In this document: positions 6,832 to 18,914 of the stretch, in pieces | How positions within the stretch are numbered: position 1 is the first letter of the stretch | How the letters are laid out: each line of letters begins with the position of its first letter | Source: a virus | Reading direction: 5' to 3' (one strand) | Virus record (IMG/VR): IMGVR_UViG_3300036945_000184 | Span: 1-23,051 of that record | DNA: 23,051 bases | Position numbers and translations under genes: made by a program | Notes under the pieces: model-generated | The model's input: the letters and a program-made list of their open reading frames with translations, nothing else | What the model was told of the DNA's origin: nothing | The model's database searches: none

Positions 6832-7437
6832 TTATTCCTTTGCTTTCTTGATTTCACTTCTTACTTTGCTCGGAAGCATTGACCACAAAGCTACCTTCTG
6901 ATCGGCCTCAAGGTTTTCTGCTTCCATCCTCTCAAGACCCTGCTTTCCGTCCAAGGTCATGATTTCTTGTGCCAACTCTTGCAGGTACTGTTGTTCTTCT
7001 GGTGGCAAAGAATCAACAATGCCTTGCGCTGGCGTGATAACTACTTTTTTCTTTTCTTCAACTGGTTTGGACGAATCCAGCGCATCGTGCTCAACGATTT
7101 CAAGCGCAGCAACCCACAAATAGCGGCGCAGGTACGTCTGCACTGCCCCAAGGTTTTGCACCTCATGGCAGCCCTTTAAAGCGGCGCTGGACATAGGGCT
7201 ACTGATAATGATGCGATCCTCTGGCTTTTCATTGTCAATGATGCTGATGTGGGATATTTCAGTGCCAAATGTAACAACACTCGTCAAGCCAACTTCATTA
7301 AAAATTTCCAAGGCTGGAATGATGAAGTCGCCAAGTTCAAAGTATTTATAGCCAGCAAATTTGTTGTGGCCTGACTTCTTCAGTGCAATGCCGTGGAACT
7401 TAGCCCGAGCAATGTTGAGTTTTTGATAGACATTCAT
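6832..7437 (-). CDS. Erf-family ssDNA annealing protein
   Basis: This 201-residue protein matches the ERF single-strand annealing family: an N-terminal xxKxHxxxxKYxxLGDF-like region (FAGYKYFELGDFIIPAL) and the core element GAVQTYLRRYLWVAALEI at about 97-114, corresponding to the GxxxTYxxRYxL motif of Erf and Sak-type recombinases. A charged linker and a helical C-terminus follow. It would promote annealing of complementary strands during phage recombination and genome end repair. The SSB-like gene follows 2 bases downstream. Confidence 0.9.
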   Translation of the reverse strand: MNVYQKLNIARAKFHGIALKKSGHNKFAGYKYFELGDFIIPALEIFNEVGLTSVVTFGTEISHISIIDNEKPEDRIIISSPMSSAALKGCHEVQNLGAVQTYLRRYLWVAALEIVEHDALDSSKPVEEKKKVVITPAQGIVDSLPPEEQQYLQELAQEIMTLDGKQGLERMEAENLEADQKVALWSMLPSKVRSEIKKAKE

Positions 7438-9712: not shown

Positions 9713-9915
9713 ACGAAGACATGAAAAATGCATGGTTGCAGATCAGCACACTTTGCGAAAACCCTGACATGACTGAATTAGATTTGTTCTTGCGGACTTG
9801 GCAACTGGCGATGGCTGCTGAACGCAAGCGATTGGCTGCTGAATGTGCGCTACTGCCTTTTGGTGACACTGCGGCCAGCTACTCTGTCTGGATTGCTAAC
9901 GGGGGTAAGCCATGA
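9709..9915 (+). CDS. Hypothetical early protein (68 aa)
   Basis: Coupled to both neighbours by ATGA overlaps, with AAGGGG before the ATG. It begins MNEDMKNAWLQISTLCEN and contains AAERKRLAAECALLPFGD, again an xAExxxLAAEC element resembling the preceding protein's C-terminal motif. Mostly helical, with no membrane segment. No family is recognised. Confidence 0.6.
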   Translation: MNEDMKNAWLQISTLCENPDMTELDLFLRTWQLAMAAERKRLAAECALLPFGDTAASYSVWIANGGKP

Positions 9916-10199
9916 AGCCAACACGCCAAAGAGCCATCAGAAAGCTGTTGCTAGAACACATTGATGGTTTGACAAAAAAACAGATTTCAGAAATGCTGGG
10001 CTTCAATGTTTCCAACATCAACACGACCATCAAAGCAATGCCAGATGTTTATGTTGACAGGTGGACAATTGGGGGCCGTGGGCAGTATCAGAAAATCTTT
10101 TGCATCGCTTTTGTTCCTGAAGACTGTCCGCATCCTAAAGACATGGTTTACAAGGGTGGCCGTGGCAAGCCATCAACAAAGTGGGTAACTATCAAATGA
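9912..10199 (+). CDS. Winged-helix DNA-binding protein (95 aa)
   Basis: The first half is a helix-turn-helix (RKLLLEHIDGLTKKQISEML, then VSNINTTIKAMPDVYVDRW) of winged-helix type, where a TKKQISEMLG helix pair precedes the recognition helix. The second half is a beta-rich basic segment. It is ATGA-coupled on both sides and followed by a shorter protein of the same type, suggesting a duplicated DNA-binding module. The target is unknown. Confidence 0.68.
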   Translation: MKPTRQRAIRKLLLEHIDGLTKKQISEMLGFNVSNINTTIKAMPDVYVDRWTIGGRGQYQKIFCIAFVPEDCPHPKDMVYKGGRGKPSTKWVTIK

Positions 10200-10363
10200 C
10201 AAGAACACACGCACTCAAAAAACTTTTAGAGCATGGCCCTTTGACAAGACGTGAGATCATTGAGATCACTGGCTGGAATCCAAAGCAAGTCCATTACACG
10301 CTGGCTTACCTTTCCAACTTTGGCTTCATTTTCAAACAAGAAAAAGCATGGGCATTAGGGTAA
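10196..10363 (+). CDS. Small winged-helix DNA-binding protein (55 aa)
   Basis: The start is ATG 10196, overlapping the previous stop (ATGA); an in-frame ATG 15 bases earlier is less likely. The product MTRTHALKKLLEHGPLTRRE continues with IIEITGWNPKQVHYTLAYL, a helix-turn-helix, and a short wing (GFIFKQEKAWALG). It is similar in layout to the preceding protein. A small regulator of phage early transcription is plausible. Confidence 0.65.
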   Translation: MTRTHALKKLLEHGPLTRREIIEITGWNPKQVHYTLAYLSNFGFIFKQEKAWALG

Positions 10364-10369
10364 CTACTG

Positions 10370-10582
10370 ATGGCATACAGCAGAAAAACTATATCCAATG
10401 AAGGCGACAGATACATGATTGAGCTTGGTGAAGCGCGAGTCTTGTTCAGGACTTACGAATCAACAGGCCAAAAGGTGTTAACGCCTGTCCGCATGGAATG
10501 GCTTGAGAAGCGATACGGCTCGGGCGCTGTCCAAAGAATCAAAGGTTACATGGTGAAATTACAGAGTGGGGAATTGGAGTAA
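10370..10582 (+). CDS. Hypothetical early protein (70 aa)
   Basis: A 70-residue basic protein beginning MAYSRKTISNEGDRYMIELG and containing RMEWLEKRYGSGAVQRIKGY. The stop shares a base with the next start (TAATG). No Cys cluster or membrane segment is seen. Family not recognised; the C-terminal helix with Lys and Arg may contact nucleic acid. Confidence 0.55.
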   Translation: MAYSRKTISNEGDRYMIELGEARVLFRTYESTGQKVLTPVRMEWLEKRYGSGAVQRIKGYMVKLQSGELE

Positions 10583-10989
10583 TGAATGAGTTGGCTTTAT
10601 TCGCAGGCGTTGAAATGACTAAGCAATACAAATCATCTGAATATATGAGGGAAAAAGCAAAAGCATGGCGCTTGGCTAACCCCGACCGCGTGGCTGCTTA
10701 CAGGGTTAAAAACAGAAGCAAAAACCATAGACAAGAGGTTGTTCGTAAATATGGCGTTGCTTTTGAGTGGTTTGATGAGCAACTTGAGAAACAAAACAAA
10801 TCATGTGCAACTTGTTTTAAGCCACTTGAATGGACAGACAAGCAAAACACACCTCATGTGGATCATTGTCATTCAACAGGAAAAGTAAGAGGAATTCTTT
10901 GTAATCGGTGCAACACGGTCTTAGGTCTTTGCGAAGACAGCAAAGAATTGTTTGAAAATTTAACAAGGTATTTGGAATGTCATGGTTAA
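10582..10989 (+). CDS. Endonuclease VII-type HNH nuclease
   Basis: The 135-residue protein has the endonuclease VII (T4 gp49-type) core: Cys75 and Cys78 (CATCFKP), HVDHCH at 92-97, VRGILCNRCNTVLG at 102-115. These enzymes resolve branched DNA and also act as homing nucleases. GGAG precedes ATG 10582, but typical homologues start at the internal MTKQYKSSEYMREKAKAW (ATG 10615). The extra N-terminus MNELALFAG is a copy of the methyltransferase motif I region encoded by the next gene, as if the nuclease gene had landed in the methyltransferase 5-prime end. Confidence 0.9.
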   Translation: MNELALFAGVEMTKQYKSSEYMREKAKAWRLANPDRVAAYRVKNRSKNHRQEVVRKYGVAFEWFDEQLEKQNKSCATCFKPLEWTDKQNTPHVDHCHSTGKVRGILCNRCNTVLGLCEDSKELFENLTRYLECHG

Positions 10990-11807
10990 TCAGCAAAGCC
11001 TTAATGAACTCGCTCTCTTTGCCGGAGCAGGTGGAGGAATACTTGGGGGAAAACTTCTCGGATGGCGAACAGTCTGCGCCGTTGAGTGGGAGCCATACCC
11101 AGCAAGCGTACTGTGCGCCAGGCAAAATGACGGACTTCTCCCGCCTTTCCCGATTTGGGATGACGTACAAACCTTTGACGGAAAGCCGTGGCGAGGAATT
11201 GTTGACGTTATTTCGGGCGGATTTCCGTGCCAGGACATTAGTGCAGCCGGAAAAGGCGCAGGGATTGACGGAGAACGATCAGGAATGTGGAGTCACATGG
11301 CGCGGGTGGTTGGCGAAGTACGACCCAGATTCGTCTTTGTGGAGAACAGCCCAATGCTCGTTTCTAGAGGACTTGAACGAGTCCTTGGTGACCTTACCGC
11401 GCTCGGGTATGACACGAAATGGACTGTTATGGGAGCTGCCGATGTTGGAGCAAACCACCAAAGGGACAGAATATGGATTGTCGGAAAATTGGCCTACACC
11501 TCGCAGTTGTTCAGCAATGGCGGCAACGATAACGCCAGAATCAGCATGGAACGAGAAACGCAATCCGAATCTGGAAACGATAGTGGGGAAAAGAATGTAT
11601 CCAACACCGACTTGTCACAACAGCAAGGAAGGAGCATATCCAGCGGAATACACCAGGAACACTCCTACGCTTGCGACTCACGCTGGTGGCAAATTGAACC
11701 CGATGTGGGTCGAATGGCTAATGGGGTGGACGCTGGGGTGGACAGACTTAAAGCCATTGGTAACGGACAAGTCCCATTGTGTGCCGCAACAGCATGGAAA
11801 GTGTTAA
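10977..11807 (+). CDS. Overlapping +1-frame protein inside the methyltransferase gene
   Basis: A second open frame of 276 codons covers almost the whole methyltransferase gene, one base out of phase. AAGG at 10965-10968 lies 8 bases before ATG 10977. The product has protein-like features: MTDFSRLSRFGMTYKPLTES (51-70), SLWRTAQCSFLEDL (120-133), two xPTP elements (WPTP near 172, YPTP near 208) and LNPMWVEWLMGWTLGWTDL near the end (240-258). From memory, proteins with LNPxWVEWLMG and PTP elements occur beside or within phage cytosine methyltransferase genes. Function is unknown. Whether it is expressed cannot be told here; the long open frame could partly reflect constraint from the other frame. 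Confidence 0.55.
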   Translation: MSWLISKALMNSLSLPEQVEEYLGENFSDGEQSAPLSGSHTQQAYCAPGKMTDFSRLSRFGMTYKPLTESRGEELLTLFRADFRARTLVQPEKAQGLTENDQECGVTWRGWLAKYDPDSSLWRTAQCSFLEDLNESLVTLPRSGMTRNGLLWELPMLEQTTKGTEYGLSENWPTPRSCSAMAATITPESAWNEKRNPNLETIVGKRMYPTPTCHNSKEGAYPAEYTRNTPTLATHAGGKLNPMWVEWLMGWTLGWTDLKPLVTDKSHCVPQQHGKC

Positions 11808-11815
11808 CAGCATGA
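10982..11815 (+). CDS. DNA C5-cytosine methyltransferase
   Basis: The 277-residue enzyme has the C5-methyltransferase motifs in order: motif I FAGAGGG at 13-19 (AdoMet binding), motif IV PCQ at 82-84 with catalytic Cys83, motif VI ENSP at 121-124, motif VIII QRDRIW at 160-165, and motif X GNGQVP at 260-265. The variable region between VIII and IX is only about 70 residues. It methylates cytosine in a sequence that cannot be read from here, probably protecting phage DNA from host restriction. The start overlaps endonuclease VII by 8 bases, and the stop overlaps the next gene as ATGA. Confidence 0.95.
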   Translation: MVNQQSLNELALFAGAGGGILGGKLLGWRTVCAVEWEPYPASVLCARQNDGLLPPFPIWDDVQTFDGKPWRGIVDVISGGFPCQDISAAGKGAGIDGERSGMWSHMARVVGEVRPRFVFVENSPMLVSRGLERVLGDLTALGYDTKWTVMGAADVGANHQRDRIWIVGKLAYTSQLFSNGGNDNARISMERETQSESGNDSGEKNVSNTDLSQQQGRSISSGIHQEHSYACDSRWWQIEPDVGRMANGVDAGVDRLKAIGNGQVPLCAATAWKVLTA

Positions 11816-12078
11816 GATACGCCGCCAGAGTGGACGCAAACCAAGCACAAATTGTTTCAGCACTAAGAGCTGCTGGCGCTTATGTCTGGATCATTGGTTT
11901 ACCAGTTGACCTTTTGGTTGGCTACAAATCTCATACCTTTCTGGTCGAAATTAAGGATGGCCCCAAAAAGCGTTTAACGAAGCTACAACAAGACTTTTTT
12001 GAAAATTGGTCTGGTAGTACGTTAGCAAGGATTGATGGCCCTGAAGCCGCTTTAAGAATGATTGGTGTCGCCAAGTGA
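11812..12078 (+). CDS. PD-(D/E)XK nuclease, VRR-NUC-like
   Basis: The start is ATG 11812, overlapping the methyltransferase stop as ATGA; the frame extends upstream only through that gene. The 88-residue protein has ANQAQIVSALRAAGAYVW, then Asp33 (PVDLLVG), and Glu46-x-Lys48 (LVEIKDGP), followed by LTKLQQDFFENW. This D...ExK arrangement with a trailing Gln is the core of VRR-NUC/Holliday-junction-resolvase-like nucleases found in phage replication modules. Confidence 0.82.
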   Translation: MRYAARVDANQAQIVSALRAAGAYVWIIGLPVDLLVGYKSHTFLVEIKDGPKKRLTKLQQDFFENWSGSTLARIDGPEAALRMIGVAK

Positions 12079-12491
12079 AAGTTACTCTACACAACGCCCA
12101 ACAAGGGCACACTGTCCTGAAGGATGTTTGGCAAAAGGCCAAGCCTTACTTGCTGGCTGGTAACAAATTGGTGCTGACGATTGAACAAGAAAAGCGCAGC
12201 CAAGAACAGAACGCTTTGTTGTGGTCTGTGCTGACAGACTTATCAAAACAAGTGATGTGGTATGGCGAAAAGCTGACCAAAGAAGAATACAAAGACTTGC
12301 TGACTGCTGGCCTGAAAAAGCAACGGGCAATTCCCGGAATAGATGGTGGGTTTGTTGTTCTTGGAACGTCAACCAGCAAGATGACAAAGCAAGAGATGAC
12401 AGACCTGATAACGCTTGCTCACTCTTTTGGTGACGAGCGTGAAGTTAAGTGGTCGCCTACAAGCATTGGTGAGTTTCATGACGAAGGATGA
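12075..12491 (+). CDS. ninB: NinB-type recombination protein
   Basis: It begins at GTG 12075 in a GTGA overlap with the nuclease stop. The 138-residue protein shows family elements RSQEQNALLWSVLTDLSKQV, then LTKEEYKDLLTAGL, PGIDGGFVVLGTSTSKMTKQ and a terminal acidic segment. NinB (Orf of lambda) binds single-stranded DNA and helps load recombinases in place of RecFOR. Here it lies between a resolvase-like nuclease and a RecA-dependent-type nuclease, all coupled by overlaps. Confidence 0.9.
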   Translation: MKVTLHNAQQGHTVLKDVWQKAKPYLLAGNKLVLTIEQEKRSQEQNALLWSVLTDLSKQVMWYGEKLTKEEYKDLLTAGLKKQRAIPGIDGGFVVLGTSTSKMTKQEMTDLITLAHSFGDEREVKWSPTSIGEFHDEG

Positions 12492-18428: not shown

Positions 18429-18914
18429 ATGACAGATCAGGATTTTATAGAGTTTTTGACCATCAATGTTTCTTATGATGAGCAAACTGGTTTATTTGCT
18501 TGGAAGCAAAAAAGACAAGGCGCTATTGCTGGAAAGTTTGGGAGCCTAGAGAAAACAGGCTATGTCAGGGTTAAATTGCTTAATAAAAAGCATTTGGCCC
18601 ATAGGCTTGCTTGGTTTATTGTTCACAAACAATGGCCCGATGGCCAGATTGACCACATCAACGGTAATAGATCAGACAATAGGATTGCTAATTTGAGGGT
18701 TGTAGACCAGTCTGGAAATTCTCAAAACCGCCGTGTGAAACAAAAAAACAATCAATCTGGTTATTTTGGTGTTCATGCTTCTGGCTCAAAATGGAGAGCG
18801 CAAATTCGCATTGATAAGAAGCTAAAGCATTTGGGGCTTTTTGATACGCCAGAGCTTGCAAGCATGGCTTACATTGAAGCAAAACGATCCATGCACGCAA
18901 CTTGCACAATTTAA
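18429..18914 (+). CDS. HNH homing-type endonuclease with AP2-like domain
   Basis: A 161-residue protein with an HNH_3-type core at 73-90 (QIDHINGNRSDNRIANLR) preceded by LAHRLAWFIVHKQWPDG, and an AP2-like region at about 110-152 (SGYFGVHASGSKWRAQIRI). Same length and layout as the gene at 350-835, with divergent sequence. It separates the terminase and portal genes, which are normally adjacent, as expected of a free-standing homing nuclease. GGAG lies a few bases before the ATG. Confidence 0.9.
   Translation: MTDQDFIEFLTINVSYDEQTGLFAWKQKRQGAIAGKFGSLEKTGYVRVKLLNKKHLAHRLAWFIVHKQWPDGQIDHINGNRSDNRIANLRVVDQSGNSQNRRVKQKNNQSGYFGVHASGSKWRAQIRIDKKLKHLGLFDTPELASMAYIEAKRSMHATCTI

Follow-up and report, generated by a model that had tools for sequence, protein, structure and literature searches.

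A probable free-standing homing element at the 5′ end of phage C5-cytosine methyltransferase genes

Homing nucleases that spare their target genes

A homing nuclease must avoid ruining the gene that it enters, which is known to be achieved through introns, inteins, intergenic sites, split genes or, in yeast, the replacement of the target's 3′ end. The yeast WHO element inserts into FBA1 by homing; the 3′ end of this gene is exchanged for one that resists cleavage, and the old end stays behind as a fragment (PMC7282813; Coughlan et al. 2020, eLife). Among the cyanophage enzymes with the Endo VII motif (DHHRN), F-CphI is a proven homing endonuclease (PMC6083498). A homing-like HNH insertion, ShiLan, is found in actinophage methylase genes (PMC11855218), and mobE in nrdA of phage Aeh1 and mobA in gene 60 of T4 are free-standing nuclease genes within coding regions (PMC2988022).

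From the comparison of phage sequences, we consider it likely that the locus described here carries a free-standing phage homing element that targets the 5′ end of a C5-cytosine DNA methyltransferase (MTase) gene, presumably by cleavage. The element pairs a nuclease with a new version of one end of the target gene, whose old end persists as a fragment; there is no splicing, and allelic sequence differences keep the target gene whole. In these respects it works like WHO, but it is not a member of the WHO family. WHO is LAGLIDADG-related, occurs in yeasts and acts at the 3′ end of FBA1, whereas Pfam and PDB comparisons place the phage nuclease with Endo VII and Hpy99I rather than with the HO/WHO-type LAGLIDADG nucleases, and the end replaced is the 5′ one, including the start codon and the N terminus. 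Resistance to cleavage has been shown for WHO and is predicted for the phage element.

The phage nuclease shares with F-CphI the Endo VII catalytic motif with the same spacing, and both are free-standing phage nucleases tied to a conserved gene; what protects the F-CphI carrier from self-cleavage is a separate group I intron in the target gene, a role that the recoded start may fill here. The ShiLan insertion differs: the methylase ORF around it is otherwise continuous, the insert is out of frame within it, and no gene end is replaced. Like mobE and mobA, the phage element is a free-standing nuclease gene inserted in a coding region, but those genes split their targets into two working polypeptides, whereas the target here becomes a single full-length ORF again. 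Nor is the insert spliced out in the manner of an intein or intron: it ends in a stop codon and carries its own replacement start. In the literature that we searched, which covers few subscription journals, we found no published description of a phage element that replaces a 5′ end.

The stretch analyzed (the window) is the whole 23,051-base IMG/VR virus record IMGVR_UViG_3300036945_000184, possibly a piece of a larger genome, and it encodes a phage terminase, an SU10-type portal, a lysozyme and an ERF recombinase. An upstream phage gene of 70 residues with unassigned function (10370–10582, + strand) ends in a stop codon that overlaps the start of the 135-residue nuclease ORF (10582–10989, + strand), which encodes MNELALFAGVEMTKQYKSSEYM... 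and matches Pfam Endonuclease_7 with an E value of 1.3e-19. This ORF is an in-frame fusion of the short form of the nuclease, with the nuclease proper at 10615–10989 (+ strand), to a stub (10582–10608, + strand) made up of the start codon and first codons of an original MTase gene of what we call type A. The catalytic residues D94, H95, H97, R103 and N111 (numbering of the whole ORF) and the zinc cysteines C75, C78, C107 and C110 provide the D-H-x-H, R and N residues and the CxxC...CxxC zinc site of the DHHRN or Endo VII-motif family (motif compared with PMC6083498), and the best PDB match is Hpy99I, an Endo VII-fold type II restriction enzyme. The nuclease stop codon is overlapped by the start of the MTase ORF (10982–11815, + strand; 277 residues), the interrupted and rebuilt target gene, which encodes MVNQQSLNELALFAGAGGG... 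(Pfam C-5 DNA methylase, E 4e-33). Its 5′ end (10982–11028, + strand) is the replacement from the insert, with the new start MVNQQSL followed by a recoded NELALFAGA.

Two more nucleases, of the HNH_3 type, are encoded at 350–835 and 18429–18914 of the window, the second with a weak AP2 match, and are likely other homing endonucleases of the same phage. The central region of the MTase (window 11470–11720 and its relatives) is short, polar and hypervariable in length, with no recognizable target-recognition domain.

Occupied and empty methyltransferase genes

The nuclease begins MNELALFAG, and motif I of the window MTase reads NELALFAGAGGG. As the initial annotation had stated, the shared residues are exact when read from both ORFs, and six of the eight are encoded by differing synonymous codons (AAT GAG TTG GCT TTA TTC GCA GGC in the nuclease; AAT GAA CTC GCT CTC TTT GCC GGA in the MTase). 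Its rejection of a recent DNA duplication also holds, since the two copies each match a different class of gene start. The nuclease ORF starts ATG-AATGAGTTGGCTTTATTCGCAGG, which is the 5′ end of an intact type A MTase gene. In nuclease-free members of this MTase family, the gene begins XTG-AATGAGTTGGCTCTTTTCGCAGGYGCTGGTGGAGGAATACTT or a variant whose second leucine codon is TTA, and at least 120 stretches match this pattern of the empty-site start. The first 26 bases of the nuclease match the starts of many nuclease-free MTase genes with few mismatches. Type A MTases occur without any nuclease in 163 unique virus loci, a count that depends on what was assembled, the loci being metagenomic virus contigs, partly fragments, of which many empty ones were found with the pattern of the empty site itself.

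The nuclease is present in 30 of the 194 unique loci with a readable MTase N terminus and lies directly before the MTase in every one of them. A stub is recognizable in 24 of these 30 loci which, together with the 26-base DNA match, excludes a chance likeness of NELALFAG. Stubs are absent from L002, L016, L019, L126, L128 and L138, the last two being contig ends; the nuclease–MTase pair can therefore also occupy other junctions. An extended nuclease away from any MTase, which the initial annotation had named as evidence against its reading, was not encountered: no nuclease of the clade is without an adjacent MTase, and about 44 more distant Endo VII matches (at most about 50% identity) have neither stub nor MTase. 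In L016 (4001–4408), the nuclease is fused to MESYAETDGFD. An unrelated gene of L019 (889–1566) has a similar start (MESYAKANGFDM...); this nuclease seems to have taken over a second gene start, distinct from that of the MTase. Intact MTase genes in Acinetobacter phage ABMM1 (L304), Pseudomonas phage phPA-G (L303) and MW202462 (L305) have starts that are similar or identical to the empty target site.

A comparison of the upstream DNA of all loci showed at least seven gene contexts in both the empty and the occupied state, with homology that extends as far as the stub. Occupied L012 and empty L053 are 92% identical over 1005 bp upstream, occupied L004 and empty L256 are 94% identical over 1175 bp, and occupied L020 and L021 are 98–99% identical upstream to empty L188. 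Occupied L005 pairs with empty L275, L193 and L084, occupied L124 with empty L247 and L098 and, by a short match, occupied L011 with empty L024 and L033. The homologue of gene 10370–10582 overlaps into a stub and nuclease in L003, L006 and L009 and straight into an intact type A MTase in L208, L221, L240 and L265, as predicted by the initial annotation, whose proposal that a homing nuclease landed early in the MTase gene is supported by these occupied and empty pairs. As expected of a free-standing homing element, the nuclease occurs sporadically at a fixed position for which empty counterparts exist.

The stubs tend to carry the allele of the empty partner from their own context. Those of L004, L005 and L012 have no mismatches in 27 bases to their partners (L256, the three partners of L005, and L053), versus 3.1–3.5 on average to all empty sites; the stubs of L020 and L021 show no such own-context match, with 2 mismatches versus an average of 2.1. 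The window shares its gene order and the TTA stub allele with the context of L003, L006 and L009, and its upstream gene is only about 41–47% identical in protein to theirs. In the nearest relatives of the window MTase (L024, L033 and L011), the MTase, with or without a nuclease, lies at differing positions among the same small genes (compare window 9912–12490), so the MTase gene itself changes place. Because of this distance of the upstream gene and the differing locations of the nearest MTase relatives, the insertion history of the window is read from the family.

The rebuilt methyltransferase start and its nuclease

The insertion point lies at codon 9. The insert follows ATG-NELALFAGAG, leaving the first ~30 bp of the recipient as the stub, and its last ~45 bp comprise a replacement start (MVNQQSL or MADKSGADGGL) and the same residues in other codons, so that a full-length MTase ORF follows the nuclease. 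As in homing, the insertion thereby alters the original site in its carrier, which is interrupted after codon 9 and has codons 1–8 recoded in all 30 nuclease loci. In all 30, codon 1 is GAA and codon 2 is CTC or CTT, where nuclease-free type A genes have GAG and then TTG or CTG. Codon statistics were restricted to loci found by protein similarity because many empty loci had been found with the empty-site pattern; between occupied and empty genes, the codon-use distance is 0.91–1.0 at codons 1, 2, 4 and 7, 0.44–0.67 at codons 3, 5, 6 and 8, and at most 0.38 at every tested codon from 9 on. Against the type A consensus, occupied genes differ at 7.3 of 24 bases in codons 1–8 and 1.8 of 21 in codons 9–15, and the corresponding values for nuclease-free genes are 2.0 and 1.7. 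We dropped the type A start as a separate DNA-level signal of conservation, many other codons of these MTases being equally conserved.

The recoded start exists in two versions, MVNQQSLNELALFAGAG and MADKSGADGGLRELALFAGAG. The GAA CTC common to both points to a single recoding in an ancestor, retained since then, and the recoded start may have come with a divergent MTase when the element formed rather than through selection on codons. These findings modify three points of the initial annotation. The MTase does have a new start downstream, but that start was supplied by the insert and not regained by the MTase. Reduced recombination between the two copies is a possible reason for the recoding, but self-protection is at least as likely, and the recoding looks like a single ancestral event. 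The internal MTKQYKSS, proposed as the typical nuclease start, does not fit the family, in which the ancestral nuclease probably had an N-terminal zinc-finger part with its own start.

This long form occurs in L020, L021, L078/L127, L122, L124 and L129–L136, where the nuclease has an N-terminal CxxC zinc-finger part and its own start, and the stub remains in front as an orphan. It is probably ancestral because many of the more distant Endo VII proteins likewise have an N-terminal zinc-finger part. The short form in the window has neither this leader nor the zinc finger. It continues the reading frame of the stub, and its translation presumably begins at the start codon of the target. In L130 (2792–2820), TTGGCT from the stub and TATAAT from the insert lie 17 bp apart and exactly span the insertion junction. 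This sigma70-like arrangement matches 10 of 12 consensus positions, with TG before the −10 box and 0.1 matches expected in shuffles, and the same candidate is seen in L122, L124, L078/L127 and L129, pointing to a putative sigma70-like promoter formed at the long-form junction.

Purifying selection acts on the nuclease (median dN/dS 0.10; 0.05–0.13 for the window copy versus its relatives), and the catalytic residues are kept in nearly all copies. The nucleases of L015 and L022 (4001–4408 in each) have a premature in-frame stop, with the adjacent MTase still in frame, and that of L022 also has a D-to-N change at the DHCH motif. The usual cycle of homing endonucleases is invasion followed by decay, and these decaying copies are a sign of it. 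Six type B MTases, which have recoded starts, occur without a nuclease (L057, L060, L062, L063, L070 and L071); all six keep AATGTCATGG just upstream, which corresponds to the codons of the nuclease's C-terminal CHG. This remnant disfavors the nuclease-free type B genes as an ancestral form and makes nuclease loss, with a scar left behind, the more probable explanation. Among 84,980 prokaryote genomes, a search for relatives of the nuclease returned only two distant matches (34–37%).

Signs of homing, alternative readings and a proposed mechanism

Nuclease DNA is 98–99% identical among L003, L005, L006 and L008, and their recoded starts are identical, with upstream flanks at chance level (24–30%) except between L003 and L006, which have the same upstream gene. 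Where readable, MTase identity among these four loci falls from 95–98% beside the insert to 60–70% further away. As read from these alignments, the decay is the pattern left by co-conversion of the DNA flanking an insert during homing. Mapped on a tree of the MTase body with the 5′ end left out, nuclease presence requires 15 changes, of which well-supported branches impose at least 12, a reconstruction in which insertion occurred many times independently. In the L012/L053 pair, the exchange ends within a few codons, and from codon 9 onward the MTase bodies are 97–98% identical. For L004/L256, identity is 94% in each outer flank but the whole MTase has been exchanged, so the moving unit is not always the insert alone.

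This whole-gene exchange fits an alternative in which the nuclease–MTase unit moves entire by ordinary phage recombination at conserved gene ends, without nuclease-driven homing, the stub marking the place where the unit replaced an older MTase. Phage mosaicism, the ERF recombinase in the window and the existence of stubless loci are all compatible with such movement. We nevertheless regard it as unlikely: a directed break better accounts for the same insertion point in at least seven contexts and for short-tract insertions like that of L012/L053, and the insert is always nuclease-led, with its catalytic residues retained in nearly all copies.

A second alternative is that the two proteins form a restriction–modification pair, the nuclease cutting sites that the MTase protects and the shared N terminus being a by-product of gene rearrangement. 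It is a serious rival because Hpy99I, the nearest solved structure, is encoded beside a methylase, as are most of its Helicobacter relatives (PMC6083498); the phage genes are themselves adjacent and overlapping, and the nuclease has a weak PADLOC match to REase_II. However, nucleases that are 95–99% identical in DNA pair with MTases sharing 7–24% of variable recognition-region positions, most MTases of the family have no nuclease (it is present in 7 of 80 among the matches listed), and L015 and L022 have broken nucleases. Such a pair would also leave unexplained the stub, the exact insertion point and the confinement of recoding to codons 1–8. Near-identical nucleases in unrelated upstream contexts and beside unlike recognition regions favor homing over a restriction–modification pair, which we judge quite improbable. 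An independent origin of NELALFAG, whether fortuitous or through short duplication of the neighbor's motif I and later synonymous drift, could account for the six of eight differing codons within the window, but it has next to no probability, being refuted by the occupied and empty pairs in the same contexts and by stubs that match intact MTase starts in DNA while the nucleases behind them have diverged at dS ~1 or more.

We therefore return to homing, for which we propose the following scheme. During a mixed infection, the nuclease would cut an intact site near GCAGGYGCTGGTGGAGG (GCAGGYGCTGGT), and the break would be repaired from the carrier, with the stub as left homology and the MTase body as right homology. 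The ERF-family single-strand annealing recombinase (6832–7437, − strand; PF04404, E 3.9e-8) could aid this repair through the ~30-bp stub homology. Recoding would keep the carrier's own gene uncut and would prevent loss of the nuclease by recombination between the stub and its copy. The ancestral long-form nuclease would be expressed from its own ribosome site and the junction promoter (stub TTGGCT, 17 bp, insert TATAAT), and the short form in the window would use the target's start codon instead. Whether these features amount to a distinct phage strategy, a self-contained "cut and rescue" cassette with a recoded 5′ end, is in our estimate an evenly balanced question. Such a cassette would capture the target's start codon in its short form, pair the target's −35 box with its own −10 box in its long form, and, through long conversion tracts, swap whole MTase alleles between phages.

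Engineered home-and-rescue gene drives are reportedly designed to home into a gene while supplying a recoded copy of the part of the target that is lost, the combination proposed here for the phage element. HomeR, one such drive (PMC7968924), is a designed CRISPR system in flies, whereas the phage element is natural and phage-borne. At the 5′ end, phages seem to have arrived at replacement by way of a recoded start, which would make the element a natural counterpart of these drives. The many occupied and empty alleles leave the mechanism open to direct testing. The element also offers a driver for the exchange of MTase alleles among phages, which may affect their sensitivity to restriction.
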